Assembly (NCBI GenBank): GCA_029052015.1
Contig: JAIDJW010000005.1
Span: 1-37,745 of the forward strand
Source: Paramuribaculum sp.
GTDB taxonomy: Bacteria; Bacteroidota; Bacteroidia; Bacteroidales; Muribaculaceae
DNA length: 37,745 bases
Direction of reading: 5' to 3'
Within the stretch, counting starts at the first letter, position 1, and the number at the start of each line of letters is the position of its first letter. The notes below the pieces were generated by a model. The model had not been told where the DNA came from. It was given only the letters and a program-made list of their open reading frames with translations, and searched no databases. This document shows, in pieces, positions 3 to 32,098 of this stretch. The position numbers and the translations under genes are program-made.

Positions 3-3000
3 TATAATATTTCTGTCGAGTCCCCGCACGGCAAGCCCTCTGCCCCCGACCCGGTAAGCAATATGCGTTTTACCAACGGTGAATTTGATGAAAAAGAAAA
101 TACATTTTCGTTCAGAAATCCCGCTACCGCAGGAGTATATTTCGGACTCTCCGACAGAGCGGAAATGATACTTGCCACTCCTGGCACTGTCAGCGCTGAT
201 GTCCTCAAAGTTTACACAGGCACACTGACTTCAACAAATGTCAGCTATGCCAACGACACCAAAGCTCCATCATTTTCCACTACCAAATGGACAGTGATGC
301 CCTCCTACAGATATGCACCTACAACACTCGAAGGTTTATTCGGCAGCAATGTCGCTCCCGATGCCAATACCACCAAACCGCTCAGAGTAGTGGCATGGAA
401 CGGTGCCGGACCGAGCGAGGAAAAGACTATCAACCTGAAATTCATTCCGCTTGACGCCCTCGAAGTCGACGTTGACCAACTCCCCGAAGGCATGGCATAC
501 GATGCCGAATCAAAGCTCATAACATACACCCGCTTCACCCCCGAAACAGCGATACCCCTGAAACTGCCTGAAGGAGCCAACCGCATCTACTATGTTGACA
601 GCAAAACCGCACCCTCAAGCGCCCAATCACCCACCGGCACAAAACCACTCAATGCCCCCGACGACGGCGAAACAACAATATGGCTACCCATAGAATATGA
701 TGTCGCTCCGGTGCACTATCAGCAGAAATACATTTCAGTCACCCCCGCCATATATACTCTGACCCAGAGCAGAATAATTTTCGGTCCCGAATCGTCGCGC
801 CTCACTCTCCTCTGCCGGTTTGTCGGCGGAGAGGAAGGAGCTGTGCCGGCACCCGACATCACCGTGAAGCCCGGCAGCAATGTGCTTGAAAGTGCAGGAG
901 GCATGGTCTCCTTCATCGGCAACAATATGGCATTCGAGGTCAGCTCAAACAACGGCAATACCTCCGAGCCCGTATTCCAGTACCAGTTCCGCGAGCCGGA
1001 TGCAAACGGCGCCTGGGCGCAGAAACCGTCGGAAGTAGCGTGGGAGGACCTGTCTGCGGGGCTCAACAACACTATACACGTATTCAAGAGCGGACGTCTC
1101 TTTGTGCGCGAAAAAGTGAACGGCGAGGCCAATTACTCCTACCGCGACATCCAGAAAATTGAAACCACACAATACTCCACCCTCGCTGCGCTCAAGGCCG
1201 ATGCCGGCGAGGAAGAGATAGTCACCATCACCGGTCCGCTCAGAATCATGGGAGCGTATCGCACCGAAGTCAACGGTCAGGACGGCACAACGCGCTACGT
1301 CTATGTCGTTGACCGTGACGGCAACGCCATAAAACTCGTTGCCGAGCTTGCCGGCGACGGATATGCCTTCCCCGAAAGCTACTACGATTTCAAAGGCAAG
1401 ACACTGGTGATACCCGGAGGAGGAGTCACCGGAGTTTTCCGCGGCAGAGAGAGCGGCTTCAGCGAAATATGGGTCACAACCCCGACAATGAAATACCTCA
1501 GCTTCCTCTCCGAAGCACACGAAAACGAGGGCTTCGGCGATATTCCCGAATATGAACGCACCGAAGTCACCGCCGCCGATTTCAACCGCCTCGTCACAGT
1601 GCGCGGCATGACATGGCTCAACGAATCGGGCAACGCCCTGCGCGACGCTGCCGGAAACATCGTCCCACTCTATGCCCGCCTCAAGGGCACCGAGCCATCC
1701 TTTGCCGACATCATTGCGGCCTTCGGAGGCGAGGACGGCAAGGGCAAGCAGTTTAGCGTCACCGGATTTGTAGGTCAGGCTTCAGGCCGCCTCGCGCTCT
1801 TCCCCGTCGAGATGCCTAAGCCATGCCCCTCCACCCCTGTGCTGCTGGCTCCAAACCCGATATCCACATCCAACGACAATGTCGACGAGCATGGCTACAT
1901 ACTCGCCAATGCCATATCCAACTCAGTGACCCTTGAAGTGGAGGACGCCGCCGAAAGCAGCGAGGATATCACCTACTACATATCCATGACCCTCAGCCCA
2001 GACGGCACCGACCACCCCGTAGAGATGGTAGAGAACGGCATCAAGGGCAGATACACCGTCGACCTCATGAGCGGCGATGCGAAATATATCAAAGTATGGA
2101 CAAAAATAGGCTCGCTGATGTCGGTGACACCCGCAATGGTCAGATTCAACAAAATTCAGGCACGCGAAATCGGCTCCATAGTCGACTTCAAGACCCTGGA
2201 ATTTGGCGAAGGCGACCAGTCCAAACGCGCCACACACTACAAGATGACAGGCAACGCCATTGTGGAGAAACGCACCGAATACTTCCTGTATGTGCGCGAT
2301 TACAACGGCACCTCCACTGCTGCAACAGGCAGCGATGTCGACAACAAATACCGCTATCTGCTCATCTACAACGCCAACACATGGGCCAACCCCATCATCA
2401 ATGACGAGAAAACCCGCGAAAAGCGCTCTCTTGAGTCCGGCGACGTCATTACCGGCTTCGCACTCGTGCCTCAGCCCGACAATGCCGACGACGGTATAGA
2501 CGAGAGCCTGAAGGCCAACCTTATCAGCTACTCCACCGGATTTGCCAGAACATTCCGATTCGTCAATACTGTGCCGGAAGAGGAGACACCTGTTGCTAAA
2601 GTGCAGAAAGTCGACTATGACGATGCCGCGCAAACCGACCACTACTACACCAACATCACCGTAGGAGAGGCCGACAGGATGTCACTCGTCAAGCTCGAAG
2701 GAGTGAGAGTGCTACCACGCGAAACCAATCCTGACGCCGCTCCAGATGCCGCAGACGACACCAAATGGATATACACCCTCAATATCGGCGACCCCGCCAC
2801 CAACCCGGTGCGTCTGACATTCGACATATTCCCCAACACACAGGGCTGGCACGCAATGTACCGCGCCGACACACCATTCAACATCACCGGAGTTGTTGTG
2901 CGTGTCGACAAAAACGGCACCACATCCTACGCACTCGCACCGACAAACATAGAGGCGGCAGAGAGCCTTGACGGAGCGCTGCAGGTTTATCTTGAGGAAA

Positions 3001-4610
3001 CACCCGACGACAAACGCGCCAACGAAGTGCAGGATTTCATCAGCGGCACAGTGGTGATGAACTACCCCGACGATGCCGACGCGGTGATATACTACACCCT
3101 CGACGGCACTGACCCGCGCAACAATCCAGCAGGCAGAGCCGTGTGGAATCCCGCCGAGCCGCTGAAACTCGCCGACAGAAGCATACAGGTAAGGGCATTC
3201 GCCGCTAAACCCGGCGCCAACCCAACCCCCACTGTAAGCCGCACATTCCGCAAACAGACATCCGACGTGCAGTTCATACTCAACTTCCTCGCCACAGCCG
3301 AGCAGGGCAAGACCTACCGCTTTACAGAGCGAGTGAAAATTGTGGCCGCCGCAGGCGAGTATATGTTTGTTGCCGGCTCGGTAGGTCACTTCCTGCCGAT
3401 ATACATGGGCACAGACTGGAATCCTGCCGAATATCCCGCAGAATCATACATCGAAAAATTCAATGTGACATACCGCGTGGATGAATCCGGCAACCGCATG
3501 GGCGACGCAACAGCCTTCGCCGCAACATATCCGGCGGCTATCGCTCCCGAAGACATGACACCCGACCGGCGCTTTGACATCAAGGCCGACTCTGTCACCG
3601 CCATATCAGCAGCAAACGCCCGCCGCCTTGTCAAAATCCACAATGTCAGCCTGCACAAAAGCGGCGACGGCGAAGAAGCCCTCTGGACCGTACGCCAGTC
3701 GACCGGCAGAGAGGAATATCCCCTCGCATTCACCCTCGGCAAGCCTGAGGCGCTCCCCGAGTCACCCCTTGTCGGCAATCTCTGGAATATGACCGGATTC
3801 GTGATGCTCGGCGCCGACGGCGAAGCGCAGCTCTGGCCCGTCGCTCTCGAAGAAGTTGAGCAGGCCGAGCCGGTGACCGTGCGCGTCACCGATGCCGAAG
3901 GAGGTCCCGCCGCCGATGATCCCCTCAGATGGCAGGGCACATTCTATCCCGTCGCAACAGTCACCCTCTCATATCCCCAGAGCCCACGCGCAGTCATCTA
4001 CTACACAGTAGGCGACGAAACCGTTGACCCCGACGCACAATGGTATGTCTACGGACTGCCCATCACAGTTGTCGGCGACATCCACATCCATGCCTACGCC
4101 GAAGTGCCCGGACGCCAGCGCAGCGAGTATATCCACATCGACCTCACCCGCGCCCCCGAGTCTGCCAAAATCAGCGGCAAACTCCGCTTCAAGCCCCAAA
4201 CATTGCCCGGCAAAGTGCTCGTGACCATAGAACCAGAAGAGGATCTCGCACCCGGCTACTCCATCTACTACACCACCAAGGAAGGCATCACCCTCACACC
4301 GGAAACAGGCGAACTATACACCGGACCCGTTGAAATCACCGAGACATCATGGCTCATGGCCATCCTCGTCGAAGAAGGCAAGGAAGCCGGCGAGGTATGC
4401 TACACCAATGTGTTCGTAATCCCTGAAACAACCGCCATAGAGGATATTGACGCAGTCGGAAGCATCACCGTCAGAGGCAACGACATCATCGCCCCGCAAG
4501 GCACACGGATATACGACATAAACGGTCGTCCGGTCAATTCTACCGGTCTCGCACCCGGCATATACATTGTCCGCACCCCGGACGGCAAAGCCCTCAAGGT
4601 GAAAATCTAA
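3..4610 (+). CDS. Very large secreted protein with chitobiase/beta-hexosaminidase C-terminal-like repeats, OB-like repeats and a T9SS type A sorting-like C-terminus (5' truncated by window edge)
   Basis: Frame is open from base 3 (YNISVESPHGKPSAPDPVSNMRFTNG...) to the stop at 4610; 'AVIYYTLDGTDP' chitobiase-C-like motif; C-terminus 'IYDINGRPVNSTGLAPGIYIVRTPDGKALKVKI' is typical of T9SS sorting domains. Confidence 0.9.
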   Translation, partial: YNISVESPHGKPSAPDPVSNMRFTNGEFDEKENTFSFRNPATAGVYFGLSDRAEMILATPGTVSADVLKVYTGTLTSTNVSYANDTKAPSFSTTKWTVMPSYRYAPTTLEGLFGSNVAPDANTTKPLRVVAWNGAGPSEEKTINLKFIPLDALEVDVDQLPEGMAYDAESKLITYTRFTPETAIPLKLPEGANRIYYVDSKTAPSSAQSPTGTKPLNAPDDGETTIWLPIEYDVAPVHYQQKYISVTPAIYTLTQSRIIFGPESSRLTLLCRFVGGEEGAVPAPDITVKPGSNVLESAGGMVSFIGNNMAFEVSSNNGNTSEPVFQYQFREPDANGAWAQKPSEVAWEDLSAGLNNTIHVFKSGRLFVREKVNGEANYSYRDIQKIETTQYSTLAALKADAGEEEIVTITGPLRIMGAYRTEVNGQDGTTRYVYVVDRDGNAIKLVAELAGDGYAFPESYYDFKGKTLVIPGGGVTGVFRGRESGFSEIWVTTPTMKYLSFLSEAHENEGFGDIPEYERTEVTAADFNRLVTVRGMTWLNESGNALRDAAGNIVPLYARLKGTEPSFADIIAAFGGEDGKGKQFSVTGFVGQASGRLALFPVEMPKPCPSTPVLLAPNPISTSNDNVDEHGYILANAISNSVTLEVEDAAESSEDITYYISMTLSPDGTDHPVEMVENGIKGRYTVDLMSGDAKYIKVWTKIGSLMSVTPAMVRFNKIQAREIGSIVDFKTLEFGEGDQSKRATHYKMTGNAIVEKRTEYFLYVRDYNGTSTAATGSDVDNKYRYLLIYNANTWANPIINDEKTREKRSLESGDVITGFALVPQPDNADDGIDESLKANLISYSTGFARTFRFVNTVPEEETPVAKVQKVDYDDAAQTDHYYTNITVGEADRMSLVKLEGVRVLPRETNPDAAPDAADDTKWIYTLNIGDPATNPVRLTFDIFPNTQGWHAMYRADTPFNITGVVVRVDKNGTTSYALAPTNIEAAESLDGALQVYLEETPDDKRANEVQDFISGTVVMNYPDDADAVIYYTLDGTDPRNNPAGRAVWNPAEPLKLADRSIQVRAFAAKPGANPTPTVSRTFRKQTSDVQFILNFLATAEQGKTYRFTERVKIVAAAGEYMFVAGSVGHFLPIYMGTDWNPAEYPAESYIEKFNVTYRVDESGNRMGDATAFAATYPAAIAPEDMTPDRRFDIKADSVTAISAANARRLVKIHNVSLHKSGDGEEALWTVRQSTGREEYPLAFTLGKPEALPESPLVGNLWNMTGFVMLGADGEAQLWPVALEEVEQAEPVTVRVTDAEGGPAADDPLRWQGTFYPVATVTLSYPQSPRAVIYYTVGDETVDPDAQWYVYGLPITVVGDIHIHAYAEVPGRQRSEYIHIDLTRAPESAKISGKLRFKPQTLPGKVLVTIEPEEDLAPGYSIYYTTKEGITLTPETGELYTGPVEITETSWLMAILVEEGKEAGEVCYTNVFVIPETTAIEDIDAVGSITVRGNDIIAPQGTRIYDINGRPVNSTGLAPGIYIVRTPDGKALKVKI

Positions 4611-11328: not shown

Positions 11329-11336
11329 TACTTTTG
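11329..11336 (+). promoter_or_regulatory. TAnnTTTG promoter box (TACTTTTG) reading toward the MFS gene
   Basis: TACTTTTGCACC on the plus strand about 200 nt upstream of ATG 11539. Confidence 0.5.
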
Positions 11337-11350
11337 CACCCCGATTCACA

Positions 11351-11526
11351 TAAGTAACCCGCAAAAATTAGCTGCGAGTGATTTTTGAGCTTTGTTCGAG
11401 TGATTTTTGTTTGAAGACGAAGGTTTGTAGCGAGCTACATGCCTGAGGATGAAATCGAAAAGCGCCGCAGTAAACAACGAGTTACCGATGACTTTTAATA
11501 TCAACTAATTTTTTAAGAGTTACTTA
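11351..11526. repeat. MITE-like element or structured leader with ~25-bp imperfect terminal inverted repeats
   Basis: Left TAAGTAACCCGCAAAAATTAGCTG (11351-11374); right CAACTAATTTTTTAAGAGTTACTTA (11502-11526), whose reverse complement is TAAGTAACTCTTAAAAAATTAGTTG; about 20 matches with one gap. Internal hairpin around GTAGCGAGCTAC and a direct repeat CGAGTGATTTTTG. Confidence 0.6.
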
Positions 11527-11538
11527 GCATTATTACAC

Positions 11539-12723
11539 ATGAACAAAGGACTGACAGCACTCGCCCTCGGCACATTCGCCCTCGGCATAGCCGAATTCCT
11601 AATGATGGGCATACTGTCCAACATCGCCGCATCAATGAACATCTCCGTCACCACCGCCGGACACTTCATCTCAGCATACGCCGCAGGAGTGTGCTGCGGA
11701 GCCCCCGCGCTGCTCTTCGCACGAAAAATACCACTGAAAAAACTCATGGCGATACTCGCCGCAACAATAGCCGTCGGCAACCTCTGCGCCGCAATCGCCC
11801 CCACCTACTGGACATTCATGGCTGCGCGATTCATCTCAGGCCTGCCACACGGAGCATACTTCGGAGTCGGAGCAATCGTGGCGCGAAAACTCGCCGCCCC
11901 GGGCAAGCAGGTCAGCGCAGTGTCAATCATGATTGCCGGAATGACAGTCGCAACACTCGTAGGAGTACCCGCCGGCACATTCATTGCCAACACCCTGCAG
12001 TGGCGCGTGGCATTCTACACCGTCGCAGCCGCCGGAATCCTCACCTACATACTTATAAAAGTGTGGGTCAGAGACGTCGGCAAACTCCCCGACATGGGAT
12101 TCAAAGGACAGTTCGGATTCCTCACCACCCTCCCGCCATGGCTGATATTCGGCGGAGTGATATTCGGACAGACAGGCATATACTGCTGGTACAGCTACAT
12201 CGACCCCATGCTCACCAACGCAAGCCGCTTCACCGCCGCCCGGCTCCCATGGCTCATGGCACTCGCCGGATTCGGAATGTTTGCCGGCAACCTCATCGCC
12301 GGACGCCTCAGCGACCGATTCAAGCCCGCAGCAGTAGCCGCGGCAGTAATGGCGGCGGCAATCCCTATCCTCGCGCTCTTCCATCTGCTGGCAGACATTC
12401 AGACAGCCGCCGCGCTGCTAATGATGCTCGGCACAGCCTCACTATTCGGCTCAGGAAGCCCCCTCCAGTCATCAATCGTAGGCTACAGCGCCGGAGGCGA
12501 AATGCTCGGAGCCGCATGCATACAGATAGCCTACAACGCCGGCAACGCAATCGCCGCATACATCGGCGGACTCGTCATCAACGCCACCGGCAGCTACACC
12601 GCACCCTCACTCGCAGGCATACCCATCACCGCCGTCGGAGTAATACTCCTTATTATATTATACCGCCGCAACGAGCGCCCGGGCGCCCTCCACCACCCCT
12701 ACTCCCCGGCGCCGAAGTCATGA
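11539..12723 (+). CDS. MFS transporter, AraJ-like/drug-proton antiporter family
   Basis: 394 aa polytopic protein: LALGTFALGIAEFLMMGILSNIAA, MAARFISGLPHGAYFGVGAIVA, GVPAGTFIANTLQWRVAFYTVAA. Confidence 0.9.
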   Translation: MNKGLTALALGTFALGIAEFLMMGILSNIAASMNISVTTAGHFISAYAAGVCCGAPALLFARKIPLKKLMAILAATIAVGNLCAAIAPTYWTFMAARFISGLPHGAYFGVGAIVARKLAAPGKQVSAVSIMIAGMTVATLVGVPAGTFIANTLQWRVAFYTVAAAGILTYILIKVWVRDVGKLPDMGFKGQFGFLTTLPPWLIFGGVIFGQTGIYCWYSYIDPMLTNASRFTAARLPWLMALAGFGMFAGNLIAGRLSDRFKPAAVAAAVMAAAIPILALFHLLADIQTAAALLMMLGTASLFGSGSPLQSSIVGYSAGGEMLGAACIQIAYNAGNAIAAYIGGLVINATGSYTAPSLAGIPITAVGVILLIILYRRNERPGALHHPYSPAPKS

Positions 12724-27613: not shown

Positions 27614-27658
27614 AATCCATATATAATTATAAATCAATCAAATAATACAGGAGTGTTT

Positions 27659-30600
27659 ATGAAAAAGTTATTCGCATGGCTGATGAGTGCAGCATTAGCG
27701 CTTATGCCACAGGTGGCGAATGCGGATGTCATTGAGTTTAATCTCACCGAGGCATTCGACAATCGTGACATGACAGGTTATTTTTATAACTATGATCCTA
27801 ACGATGAGACCAAAGGCAAATTCTTTATTGAAACAAACGGGCTGCTGCCTTCAATCGGAGCTCCGAGAACCTTGAGCCGCGTATTTACAGCGAGCAACGG
27901 CAAAGAGTACAGACTTGTATTGGACTTTAAAAACAGAGACCAGTATCCTAATAATATAAGTGTTTCAAGCAACACGTATTCCGGATCAATATATATATCA
28001 TTCAAAGACAATATTGTATTTGATATTTATATCTTAAACAAGGTTGGCAAAAAGGCTGCAAACCTCAGTCAAATATGGCTTTATCCTGTAGGCAGCTATA
28101 TAAATTCTCAGGCACCAAACATATTGATACAGGATGGTGTGACTAACCAGCAAAAAGATATTCAAAACGCCAATTCATCAAGCGCATACGTGCGCTGGTA
28201 TCCCAAAAACGGTACAAAATCCGACATCGCCAATCTAAAAATCGGAAATACTGAGATAACAAGTTTTGGAGACACAAGATTCTATCTGGGAAAAACCAGA
28301 GTAATCTACACTTTGTTGCCGACGGAGCCGGAGGCGCCGGTGCTGAGCGCGGTGAGCGGCAAGAAGCCGGACAAGGACGGGGTAATAAATTTCGTAAATT
28401 CGATTGATATCCAGGCGAGTATCAACGAACTTGACGAGGGTAACGGCATAGAGCTGTATGGCGAGGAAGTGGAGACGGGCAGCACCAAGCAGCAACCGGA
28501 CGTCACCGACGCCAACAAAGTGGACGACAAGGCTATAATAAGCATAGCCAATAGCTGCCGCTATATGCTCATGGCAAAGAATCCTGCGGGAACAGACCTG
28601 ACAAGCCCGGTGACGGAGCTGACATTCAACCGCCTGGAGGCTAAGGGCTACGAGAGCATCAGAGCGCTGACAGGCATCACTCCGGGGGCAACTCCGCCGA
28701 CTTCCAACAGCAATGACCGCGAGGTGGTGACTTTCAGCCGCCCGCTGCTTGTGGAGGGCGTGTATGCTACAAATCAAAACAATATCACCTTCATATATCT
28801 GCGCGACAGCGCGGGCGACATGATTCGCGCTGTGTGTGCCAGCAACGCTATGCCCGGGGGCATCTACGCCGGAGAGTATCTGCCGGCAAACGGCTTTGCA
28901 GGACGCTATATCCACAACGCGGGCATGCCTGAAATCGAAGTGAGCGATTTCACCAAGTATTTTTGCCCGACGACAGCGACAATAAATGGTGTGGAGGGTT
29001 TTCCCGCCACCGAGGAGCGCATGAACAGCGAGCTTGAGGCAGGCAAGCGCATTGTGAGCGAGAGCGATTTCAACAGGCATCTGCTGCTGAGCCATCTGAC
29101 ATACGCGGAGAATAACAGGGTGACCGATGCCAACGGCAACAGCTACCAGCTGTATCCCCGCTTCCAGGATTATGAGGTGGAGAGCCACGAGGCGGGCACT
29201 GCGGTGTATCTCGACTGCTATGTGGGCAAGACTGCCGACGGCATCATGCTCATACCGGTGAAGACGCTCGTGTGCGCGCCGACACCGATAGCGCGCTTCA
29301 AAAACGGCAACCGGATAAGCGGCGATGTGCATATAGTGAAGGTTGACGCGCAGCATCCCATCGAGTGGGAACTAATCAAACCGGAAAACGGCAACTACAG
29401 CTATCTGTGCAATGTTGACGGCTACAACTGGATGGCAGCCCCGCAGCCGGTTAATTTCAGCGACTTCAAGGGCACTCTGCCAGACGGCAGAAAGTATTGC
29501 GACCTGGTAATCTCCGCCAATATCGGCGGGGAATATAATCCGCTGACCTCTACTGTCGAGAAGATACGCTTCATCATAGAGAAGGCGCGCGAAGCGGGAA
29601 GCATCAAGGATTTCAAGGACGCGCTGCTCGACAGCGAGGGCAATGTGAAGATAGACGCCCGAATGAGCGACTATTACCTGATAGGCGGCAATGTGGTAAT
29701 CGAAGCGAAGACAGACTATTATCTGTATGTGCGCGACAATGTTGAGAACGCGAGCTCGCGCAACCATCTGCTGATATACAACCCCAACAAGTGGGACAAT
29801 CCTCAGATCGTGGACTCCAAGGGCCAGAGCCGCAGCCTGGCTGTCGGGGATGTGATAAGCGGATTCGTGATGAAGCCCGACCTTACTCCTCAGGGCAACC
29901 TGCGTGGGCGAGGCGAGGGATTTGCCCGCACCTATGGCGTGGTGACAGCCCCCGGCACAGTGCAGCCCGCCACCCTGACCGAGGTTGAGGTGTGTCAGTG
30001 CGAGGGTCAGCCCGGTGAGGAGCCTCACGAGAGCTATTACAAGAACTTCACCTACACCGGTGCAGACCGGATGATGCATTTCCGCTTCAAGAACGTGACT
30101 GTGAGCAACCGCCCGAATCCGGCATACGCCGACGCGGAGGAGCTTGAGGACGGCACGAGGGTGGATGAAAACGGTGAGATTGTCGACGAGCTGATATACA
30201 CTCTCGAGCTGGGCACTCCGCTGGATATGCGCTTCAATGTGTTTACCAGCCGTCGCGGCGGCTGGGTGACGAGCTACACCGAGGGCGTGCAGTACACCAT
30301 CGAAGGTGTGCTCGTGCAGGACAAGCTGCGGAGCCCGAGCGGCTTCTCGCTGGCGATGATAGATTTCAGCACCGCAGACCAGGCTCTTGCCCCTGCAAGG
30401 ATATATATGGAGGGACTCGAGGATGCTACTCCCGACTCCAACGGCGAGATAGGCTATATCAGCGCGGGCAAAGTGTTTATCGACAAAGCCGAGGGCGCGC
30501 GGGAGAATGCGGTGATTTACTACACTCTCGACGGCAGCGACCCCAAAACCAACAGACACCGCTCGGTGTATGACGCTACGCAGGGCATAGCGCTGCCTGA

Positions 30601-32098
30601 CAACATGAAGGTTGTGAGCGTGAGAGCATATGCTGCATGGCCCGGAGCGAGCCCGAGCGCAGAAAAGAACATGAAATTCCGCCGCGAGTCGGAGGAGTTT
30701 ACCTATATTCTCAACTTCCTGAGCCAGGCGCAGGAGGGACTGCCATATCACTTCAACGGACATGCGAGAGTAGTTGCCATCGGCGGCGAATATATGTTTG
30801 TGCGCGGCACCCAGGGCCATTATCTGGCGCTCCACCGTCCCGGCGGCGACTGGAGCGGCTATAAGCAGGGCCAGTATGTGAGCGACCTGGTTGTTGCCGT
30901 GGAGAAGGTGGGCGCAGACAAGATTGTTCGCGGCGCGATTGTCAGCGACGCATACGCTCCGTTCCTCACCCCCGGCAGCGCTGCCAAACCCGACGGACTG
31001 AAAGAAGAGATAGCGGTGACCCAGCGCGAGATAGCCGACCAGATAGACGAGGTTAGCGCAGCCAATGCGCGGAGGCTTGTGACAGTGCGCAATGTTGCTC
31101 TGGATGGAGTGGAGTTTGAGGCTGAGATAAGCTCCCAGGTCACGGAGTGGACTCTGATTCCCAACCAGGGACATGACATAAGCAAAGCTGTGAGAATCAA
31201 CTACAGCGTGCTCGCGTTTGAAATGCCTGAAAAGGGCACCGAAGGAAGGTATTACAATGTGACAGGCTTTGTGATGCTTGACGAGAACGGCATCCCTGAG
31301 ATATGGCCCACGGCGATAGACCGCATCGAAAACGCGGACGCACCGGCAGTGAGCGCCGACAGCGAGTCGTTGCTGACACAGACGGGGGTAAATTCCTATG
31401 TTCTGGAATTTTATCCGAGCGCGGTAGTGAGCCTCAACTACAACGGCAAGAACGCTTCAAAAGCCACTATCCGCTACATATTCACCAGAGACGAGAGCGC
31501 ACCGGACGAAAACGCGCGGTGGAATGTGTACGGCCAGCCCTTCAGCGTGAGCGGCAACGGCTATATCCACGCATACGTGGAGGTGGCCGGCATGGAGGCG
31601 AGCGGCCACACCCACATAGAGCTTGTCAGGACGCAGAAGCATATCAGCGGCGGCGTGACCTACAGCATGATAAAGGATGGCGAGGGAAGCGCTAAGGTTG
31701 AGCTGAAACCTATCGACAATCTGACCGCGGGCAGCTATGCGATATACTATTCGACTGACTACAACACCGCTCCGGCAGTGAGCGAGGCTATGCGCTACAC
31801 AAGCCCGTTTGCCGTGCCTGAGAGCGGAGTGGTGCTTGCGATACTTGTCGAGGAGGGCAAGCGCCCGAGCGAGGTGCAGACCATGAATGTGTGGCACTTC
31901 GGCGAATCGACCGGCATTGACGGCATCAGCGGCTCCGAAGGAGAGAGTGAAGTGAGAGTTGACGGCGACAGCATCATCGCTCCGCAGGGCAGCGAGGTGT
32001 ATGACCTGAGCGGCAGACGGGTGCAGCCCGGCGGTCTTGCAAGCGGGGTGTATGTGGTAAGACTCCCCGGCGGCAAGGCTGTGAAGGTGAGAATCTGA
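27659..32098 (+). CDS. Very large secreted protein paralogous to the first CDS; chitobiase-C-like and OB-like repeats, T9SS sorting-like C-terminus
   Basis: Signal MKKLFAWLMSAALALMPQVANA; AVIYYTLDGSDP; GEYMFVRGTQGHYLAL parallels GEYMFVAGSVGHFLPI of the first CDS; C-terminus DSIIAPQGSEVYDLSGRRVQPGGLASGVYVVRLPGGKAVKVRI. Confidence 0.93.
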   Translation: MKKLFAWLMSAALALMPQVANADVIEFNLTEAFDNRDMTGYFYNYDPNDETKGKFFIETNGLLPSIGAPRTLSRVFTASNGKEYRLVLDFKNRDQYPNNISVSSNTYSGSIYISFKDNIVFDIYILNKVGKKAANLSQIWLYPVGSYINSQAPNILIQDGVTNQQKDIQNANSSSAYVRWYPKNGTKSDIANLKIGNTEITSFGDTRFYLGKTRVIYTLLPTEPEAPVLSAVSGKKPDKDGVINFVNSIDIQASINELDEGNGIELYGEEVETGSTKQQPDVTDANKVDDKAIISIANSCRYMLMAKNPAGTDLTSPVTELTFNRLEAKGYESIRALTGITPGATPPTSNSNDREVVTFSRPLLVEGVYATNQNNITFIYLRDSAGDMIRAVCASNAMPGGIYAGEYLPANGFAGRYIHNAGMPEIEVSDFTKYFCPTTATINGVEGFPATEERMNSELEAGKRIVSESDFNRHLLLSHLTYAENNRVTDANGNSYQLYPRFQDYEVESHEAGTAVYLDCYVGKTADGIMLIPVKTLVCAPTPIARFKNGNRISGDVHIVKVDAQHPIEWELIKPENGNYSYLCNVDGYNWMAAPQPVNFSDFKGTLPDGRKYCDLVISANIGGEYNPLTSTVEKIRFIIEKAREAGSIKDFKDALLDSEGNVKIDARMSDYYLIGGNVVIEAKTDYYLYVRDNVENASSRNHLLIYNPNKWDNPQIVDSKGQSRSLAVGDVISGFVMKPDLTPQGNLRGRGEGFARTYGVVTAPGTVQPATLTEVEVCQCEGQPGEEPHESYYKNFTYTGADRMMHFRFKNVTVSNRPNPAYADAEELEDGTRVDENGEIVDELIYTLELGTPLDMRFNVFTSRRGGWVTSYTEGVQYTIEGVLVQDKLRSPSGFSLAMIDFSTADQALAPARIYMEGLEDATPDSNGEIGYISAGKVFIDKAEGARENAVIYYTLDGSDPKTNRHRSVYDATQGIALPDNMKVVSVRAYAAWPGASPSAEKNMKFRRESEEFTYILNFLSQAQEGLPYHFNGHARVVAIGGEYMFVRGTQGHYLALHRPGGDWSGYKQGQYVSDLVVAVEKVGADKIVRGAIVSDAYAPFLTPGSAAKPDGLKEEIAVTQREIADQIDEVSAANARRLVTVRNVALDGVEFEAEISSQVTEWTLIPNQGHDISKAVRINYSVLAFEMPEKGTEGRYYNVTGFVMLDENGIPEIWPTAIDRIENADAPAVSADSESLLTQTGVNSYVLEFYPSAVVSLNYNGKNASKATIRYIFTRDESAPDENARWNVYGQPFSVSGNGYIHAYVEVAGMEASGHTHIELVRTQKHISGGVTYSMIKDGEGSAKVELKPIDNLTAGSYAIYYSTDYNTAPAVSEAMRYTSPFAVPESGVVLAILVEEGKRPSEVQTMNVWHFGESTGIDGISGSEGESEVRVDGDSIIAPQGSEVYDLSGRRVQPGGLASGVYVVRLPGGKAVKVRI

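Follow-up and report, generated by a model that had tools for sequence, protein, structure and literature searches.

We have characterized a 176-bp element in the genome of a Paramuribaculum sp. and interpret it as an IS630-type MITE that carries a hairpin module spread across the order Bacteroidales and most likely working as RNA; the probability of this overall reading is, in our estimate, roughly 0.68. MITEs are usually viewed as internally deleted kin of one parent, and one would accordingly expect interiors that are free of constraint and parent-specific. In the present case, conservation is highest in the interior, which is common to MITEs with unrelated ends across a gut-dominant order. 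The conserved hairpin in otherwise unrelated elements suggests an undescribed RNA module common to small transposons.

The element and its repeat family

The window, meaning the whole stretch of DNA that was analysed (37,745 nucleotides), contains one copy of the element at 11351-11526 on the plus strand, with limits based on the other copies in the same genome and on an alignment of their ends. The left TIR, TAAGTAACCCGCAAAAATTAGCTG (11351-11374, plus strand), includes the TA of the target duplication, and the right TIR (11502-11526, minus strand; reverse complement TAAGTAACTCTTAAAAAATTAGTTG) includes the second TA. The inverted arms are 82% complementary between 11351-11367 and 11510-11526, and 92% between 11363-11374 and 11502-11513. 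They enclose a direct repeat of CGAGTGATTTTTG at 11375-11387 and 11397-11409 (plus strand, 22-nt spacing), which is a duplicated outer-stem strand spanning 11375-11409, and a AGGTTTGTAGC-GA-GCTACATGCCT hairpin at 11421-11444. Upstream of the element, a TACTTTTG box (11329-11336, plus strand) fits the Bacteroidota -7 consensus TAnnTTTG and is a putative promoter, judged on sequence only. The gap from this box to the element is 14 bp, and 12 bp separate the end of the element from the ATG at 11539 of an MFS transporter gene (11539-12723, plus strand; PF07690), whose best NCBIfam score is AraJ-like and lies below the cut-off of that model. The MITE makes up almost the entire 5' leader of this gene. 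The arms, the hairpin, the 22-nt-spaced repeat and the distances to the box and the ATG had been given in a preliminary description of this DNA, and all of them were present when the sequence was read. Elsewhere in the window, positions 63-4610 and 27653-32098 encode two large secreted-looking proteins of 1515 and 1481 aa, whose C-terminal tails are alike (GIYIVRTPDGKALKVKI and GVYVVRLPGGKAVKVRI) and resemble type IX secretion sorting signals.

The genome (2.35 Mb in 210 contigs, about 87% complete) holds 11 full-length copies and about seven partial ones, and the ten other full-length copies are 73-88% identical to the window copy. Since both the ends and the interior recur in these copies, the element is real and not a chance arrangement, and we regard its identity as a MITE as almost certain. 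A scan for the TIR returned 31 ends, against 1 for a reversed control pattern. Several copies lie at the ends of contigs, where a repeat that interrupts the assembly would be expected. Intact copies measure 195-197 bp by end alignment, compared with which the window copy is missing about 20 nt in its right half, and no ORF of at least 100 aa lies inside the elements of 176-197 bp. Two single-copy derivatives of about 83 and 73 bp (L015 and L016, on C15 and C115 of this genome) have lost the core, each through a different deletion. About 30 copies are present in the genome G078. An exact 35-mer from the window copy had no match in the genome contig collection, and the element had no match in the plasmid records.

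Other insertions in the same genome are located between cydA and cydB, upstream of sufE and of the gene of an LMW phosphatase, and elsewhere. Read by eye, several of them are placed at a TA within a TATG start context or just past a TAnnTTTG box, and therefore the placement of the window copy as a near-complete leader is not unique. At sufE (L011, 1502-1698), the mutated last base of the element seems to give the first base of the GTG start codon, in which case the end of the MITE would belong to the translation start.

We searched 34 genomes of the genus for the joined flanks of ten copies. Two insertions, L003 between cydA and cydB and L011 before sufE, correspond in congeners to an uninterrupted site with a single TA, in place of the TA-element-TA of this genome, and Pfam confirmed the genes flanking both. 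The single TA at these two empty sites indicates that the target duplication is TA. For the window insertion, no syntenic empty site was found among the genomes examined. The preliminary description had judged the outermost TA on each side to be compatible with a TA duplication and had stated that many TIR-bounded copies together with empty-site orthologs would support a MITE. The duplication is borne out at the empty sites of two other copies, the 11 full-length copies and the cydAB and sufE sites supply the expected support, and IS630-family elements with similar ends in the same bacterial family agree with the MITE reading.

A potential partner transposon was found when DDE_3 was searched in 16 genomes. 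The genome G092 (one contig) carries a 1114-bp element in two identical copies, which have different flanking sequences and are bordered by TA on either side. Their product is an IS630-family transposase (NF033545, 117.2 bits; PF13358). The ends of this element, TAAGTAAGTCGTAAAAATTAATTTATACTAA and TAAGTAGATGTTGAAAATTAGTTTATATCAA, agree with the MITE end of the copy L007 at 26 and 25 of 31 positions, and they agree less well with the window copy's own ends (20-21 of 30-31). Homologs of this transposase occur in 37 of 397 Muribaculaceae genomes. In the window's own genome, which is incomplete, neither a DDE_3 transposase nor a tblastn match was found, and an autonomous element with exactly TAAGTAACTC ends was found neither there nor in any search. 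Accordingly, the movement of the window MITE subfamily in trans by an IS630-group transposase of relatives is only inferred, without transposition data. At L114 of G092 (1384-2497), the IS630-family transposase seems to be split over two frames: the ORF at 2007-2333 (minus strand) has a part resembling a helix-turn-helix, and the ORF at 1411-2490 (minus strand) has the DDE part. This arrangement suggests either a programmed frameshift or decay of the junction.

The core in elements with unrelated ends

BLAST searches in relatives matched either whole elements or just the central 70 nt, and reading of the 70-nt loci revealed the same core within elements of quite different ends. In G092, the core lies within elements that have the TIR AGAGATTGTCTAAATTT and TTA or TAA duplications, adjoining an intact IS5-family transposon of the same TIR. 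This intact IS5-family transposase, next to core-bearing MITEs of TIR AGAGATTGTCTAAA and with the same ends, was identified by NF033580 (178.7 bits), PF13340 and PF01609. Elements with the TIR AGACCCCGTTCCCCAATATTTG also have the core, most of them with TAA duplications, and one of them, with the TIR AGACCCCGTTC, holds a remnant of an IS5-type transposase (PF13340). The duplications of the IS5-type core-bearing MITEs are TNA, and Prevotella and Hoylesella elements with the ends GGCTGGTTCTATAAATTA carry the core with apparent 4-bp duplications. We consider it highly probable that one structured core is shared by MITEs of the IS630 and IS5 types, and thus of no fewer than two transposase families.

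Two further observations concern the organization of these elements. A near-identical GGCTGGTTCTATAAATTA-ended MITE is shared across Prevotella and Hoylesella (L267, L295, L297, L299, L303, L307, L311, L312 and L326), which hints at recent interspecies spread and at a third transposase type. At L225, L235, L241, L243, L249 and L251, longer elements contain two opposite cores about 160-190 nt apart, with their purine strands facing each other.

The distribution of the core was determined with a covariance model, R1, built from 26 cores, against which the window core scores 82.2 bits. At E-values up to 1e-4, R1 matched 211 of 397 Muribaculaceae genomes, in 19 of 30 genera. Among 393 genomes sampled across the order it matched 10, of which six belong to families other than Muribaculaceae and one has at least 12 copies, and among 396 sampled across the phylum only two, both Bacteroidales; the core was not found in the other Bacteroidota orders sampled. 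The per-genome scoring covers 12 candidates, so that copy numbers are minima. With a DNA pattern of the inner part, named genomes gave at least 117 matching stretches, nearly all from Bacteroidales, with hosts in Prevotella, Hoylesella, Alloprevotella, Alistipes, Barnesiella, Bacteroides and Muribaculaceae. Single oddities labelled Phaeodactylibacter, Paenibacillus and Rickettsiales may be binning errors; in the MAG labelled Rickettsiales, a weak form of the core (L263 and L298) may reflect contamination or a distant relative. One viral contig matched as well. No Rfam family matches the element, and no description of the core was found in the open-access literature, subscription journals being outside the scope of the search. 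Likewise, no open-access paper was found that ties MITEs to Muribaculaceae in substance or has the core strings in a relevant context.

Structure and strand constraint of the core

In the window copy, the core is a 70-nt hairpin (11398-11467, plus strand) consisting of an outer stem, a tandem G.A helix and an inner stem GUAGC/GCUAC. The core forms a long helix in which the middle places GA-N-GAAGGA opposite GACTGA-N'-GA, and tandem G.A/A.G steps alternate with Watson-Crick pairs. This reading of the internal loop is an inference from pairing without a solved structure. According to the column tables, the putative G.A helix of the window copy has GAAGACGAAGGT (11413-11424) as its 5' side and CCTGAGGATGA (11442-11452) as its 3' side, and it carries the inner stem-loop GTAGC-GA-GCTAC (11427-11438), all on the plus strand. 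Its near-invariant pair step is G11419.A11446 and A11420.G11445. The inner G.A step of this copy is swapped for other pairs, G-C among them, and in other copies the whole inner stem is altered as a unit (GTAC in L226 and L241).

Pairing holds for 90.2% of the cells in an alignment of 96 distinct sequences, and two-sided changes occur in 23 of 25 pairs. The covariation score is 0.549, against 0.168 for the shuffled control and at most 0.132 for slid registers; as a caveat, the covariance-model alignment leans to its own structure, and the sequences are related. The N-N' position takes all four pairs (U-A 36, A-U 22, C-G 20 and G-C 10), outer stems of quite different sequence still pair, and the central GA/GA step is near invariant on either side (93-94 of 96 rows).

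The mismatches are distributed unequally between the strands, with 173 G.U against 45 A.C and 135 G.A against 7 C.T among the off-pair cells. In the outer stems of loci found via the inner motif alone, the corresponding counts are 77 to 23 and 87 to 3, and for representatives of the same stems with less than 80% identity they are 43 to 16 (p 6e-4) and 43 to 1 (p 5e-12). Considering that a pure DNA palindrome would give strand-symmetric mismatches, this asymmetry points to a function as RNA or, less likely, as single-stranded DNA. In predicted RNA folding, the purine strand was more stable in 90 of 93 cores, and the window core had a z-score of -2.79 on the plus strand and -0.38 on the minus strand; in this copy, the purine strand coincides with the coding strand of the MFS gene. 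We lean towards the view that the core acts as RNA, in the absence of expression or probing data.

A simpler explanation is that the element is an ordinary MITE. The core would then be a fossil of one ancestor whose arms had been exchanged through nested insertion and recombination, and the hairpin would merely reflect the usual palindromic character of MITEs, without further function. MITEs commonly give hairpin transcripts (review PMC10969869), and class E MITEs nested at IS5 ends offer a plausible route for the exchange of TIRs. However, a neutral palindrome does not predict such strongly one-stranded off-pair changes, correction of a palindrome would erase the G.A steps that are nearly invariant here, and the pairing is kept in outer stems of divergent sequence. 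Accordingly, we find this explanation unlikely.

With regard to orientation, sense exceeded antisense by 50:25 (p 0.005) in tandem gene pairs under loose gene calls. The ratios under stricter gene calls were 40:27 (p 0.14) and 29:22 (p 0.40), so that a robust sense bias relative to the flanking genes was not established. This outcome would be compatible with a core that acts as single-stranded DNA in transposition or replication, for example as a one-strand site for a host or transposition factor. Strand-specific folding fits single-stranded DNA and RNA equally, and tandem G.A steps are stable in DNA too. However, the DDE transposons of IS630 and IS5 move as double-stranded DNA, and we know of no single-stranded DNA step common to both; a role as single-stranded DNA therefore appears improbable to us.

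If, as we prefer, the core acts as RNA, it could still be a trans-acting small RNA gene travelling within MITEs. The one-strand constraint, the order-wide spread and the many copies per genome would all suit such a gene, but no conserved promoter or terminator was found beside the core in the aligned elements, and many near-identical copies in one genome would be redundant, which leaves it with little support. An MFS-specific cis-regulatory RNA (an attenuator or riboswitch), attractive only in that the element is nearly the whole leader of the MFS gene, can be practically dismissed, because the element is absent upstream of the MFS orthologs of four congeners (L148-L151), the copies of its own genome lie before other genes, and no Rfam match was obtained at E up to 5. 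The preliminary description had considered an undescribed cis-regulatory RNA as the alternative to a MITE, and its structural half survives in the form of a covarying, strand-specific hairpin; the tie to the MFS gene does not, as this hairpin belongs to MITEs order-wide. The core occurs in different kinds of transposon and beside many different genes, which makes the regulation of one particular gene an unlikely role for the module. More simply, it may act, through a host factor, in any transcript that runs across the element.

Proposed mechanism and comparison with known systems

In the mechanism that we propose, an IS630-type MITE would have inserted at a TA between the promoter and the start codon of the MFS gene, mobilised in trans, as we infer, by an IS630-group transposase of relatives. 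Transcription from the neighbouring promoter would read through the element, and in the transcript the purine-rich strand may form a long helix in which tandem G.A pairs are interleaved. A host factor, either an unknown protein or an RNase, is inferred to recognise this helix, and its recognition might make the insertion tolerable or useful; this benefit is likewise an inference. On a wider scale, we consider the chances evenly balanced that, throughout Bacteroidales, MITEs moved by unrelated transposases (IS630, IS5 and probably a third type that leaves 4-bp duplications) have a single RNA module as their interior, which is kept by selection at the transcript level. If the core acts as RNA, it would represent an RNA family not described before, found in about half of the Muribaculaceae species sampled and in many gene leaders, and the persistence of MITE interiors would become a testable question.

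Among known systems, the IS630/Tc1-mariner-type MITEs, such as the Correia elements and RUP, are alike in being short, TIR-bounded, multicopy and intergenic, with a TA duplication and a partner IS630-family transposase in relatives. The element described here differs in its Bacteroidales hosts and in a hairpin that is common to MITEs of another transposase family. The ERIC elements share a short palindromic intergenic build with a conserved central hairpin and are said to insert at TA, but they belong to enterobacteria and are unrelated in sequence; we know of no ERIC core common to several TIR classes. Tandem G.A steps are also found in the box C/D kink-turn RNAs, one subclass of which reads GUGAUGA...CUGA. 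In the core, however, the position that separates the G.A steps behaves as a covarying Watson-Crick pair, and thus the helix is symmetric and lacks a three-nucleotide bulge; a kink-turn or box C/D RNA was set aside on this ground.

The BrickBuilt MITEs of Porphyromonas gingivalis (PMC4596501) are also from Bacteroidales and have internal direct repeats, of 23 nt there and 22 nt here. They differ in their IS5-type TIRs GAGACCTTCGCA and long minisatellite arrays, and a covarying G.A core is not described in the part of that paper considered here. We rejected the window element as a BrickBuilt MITE, since its TIRs are not GAGACCTTCGCA and it has only two 22-nt-spaced units in place of 23-nt arrays. 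Lastly, the pneumococcal BOX elements (review PMC10969869) resemble the present family as mobile repeats with structured, transcribed interiors, and differ from it in their modular boxA/B/C build, their host phylum and their unrelated sequence.
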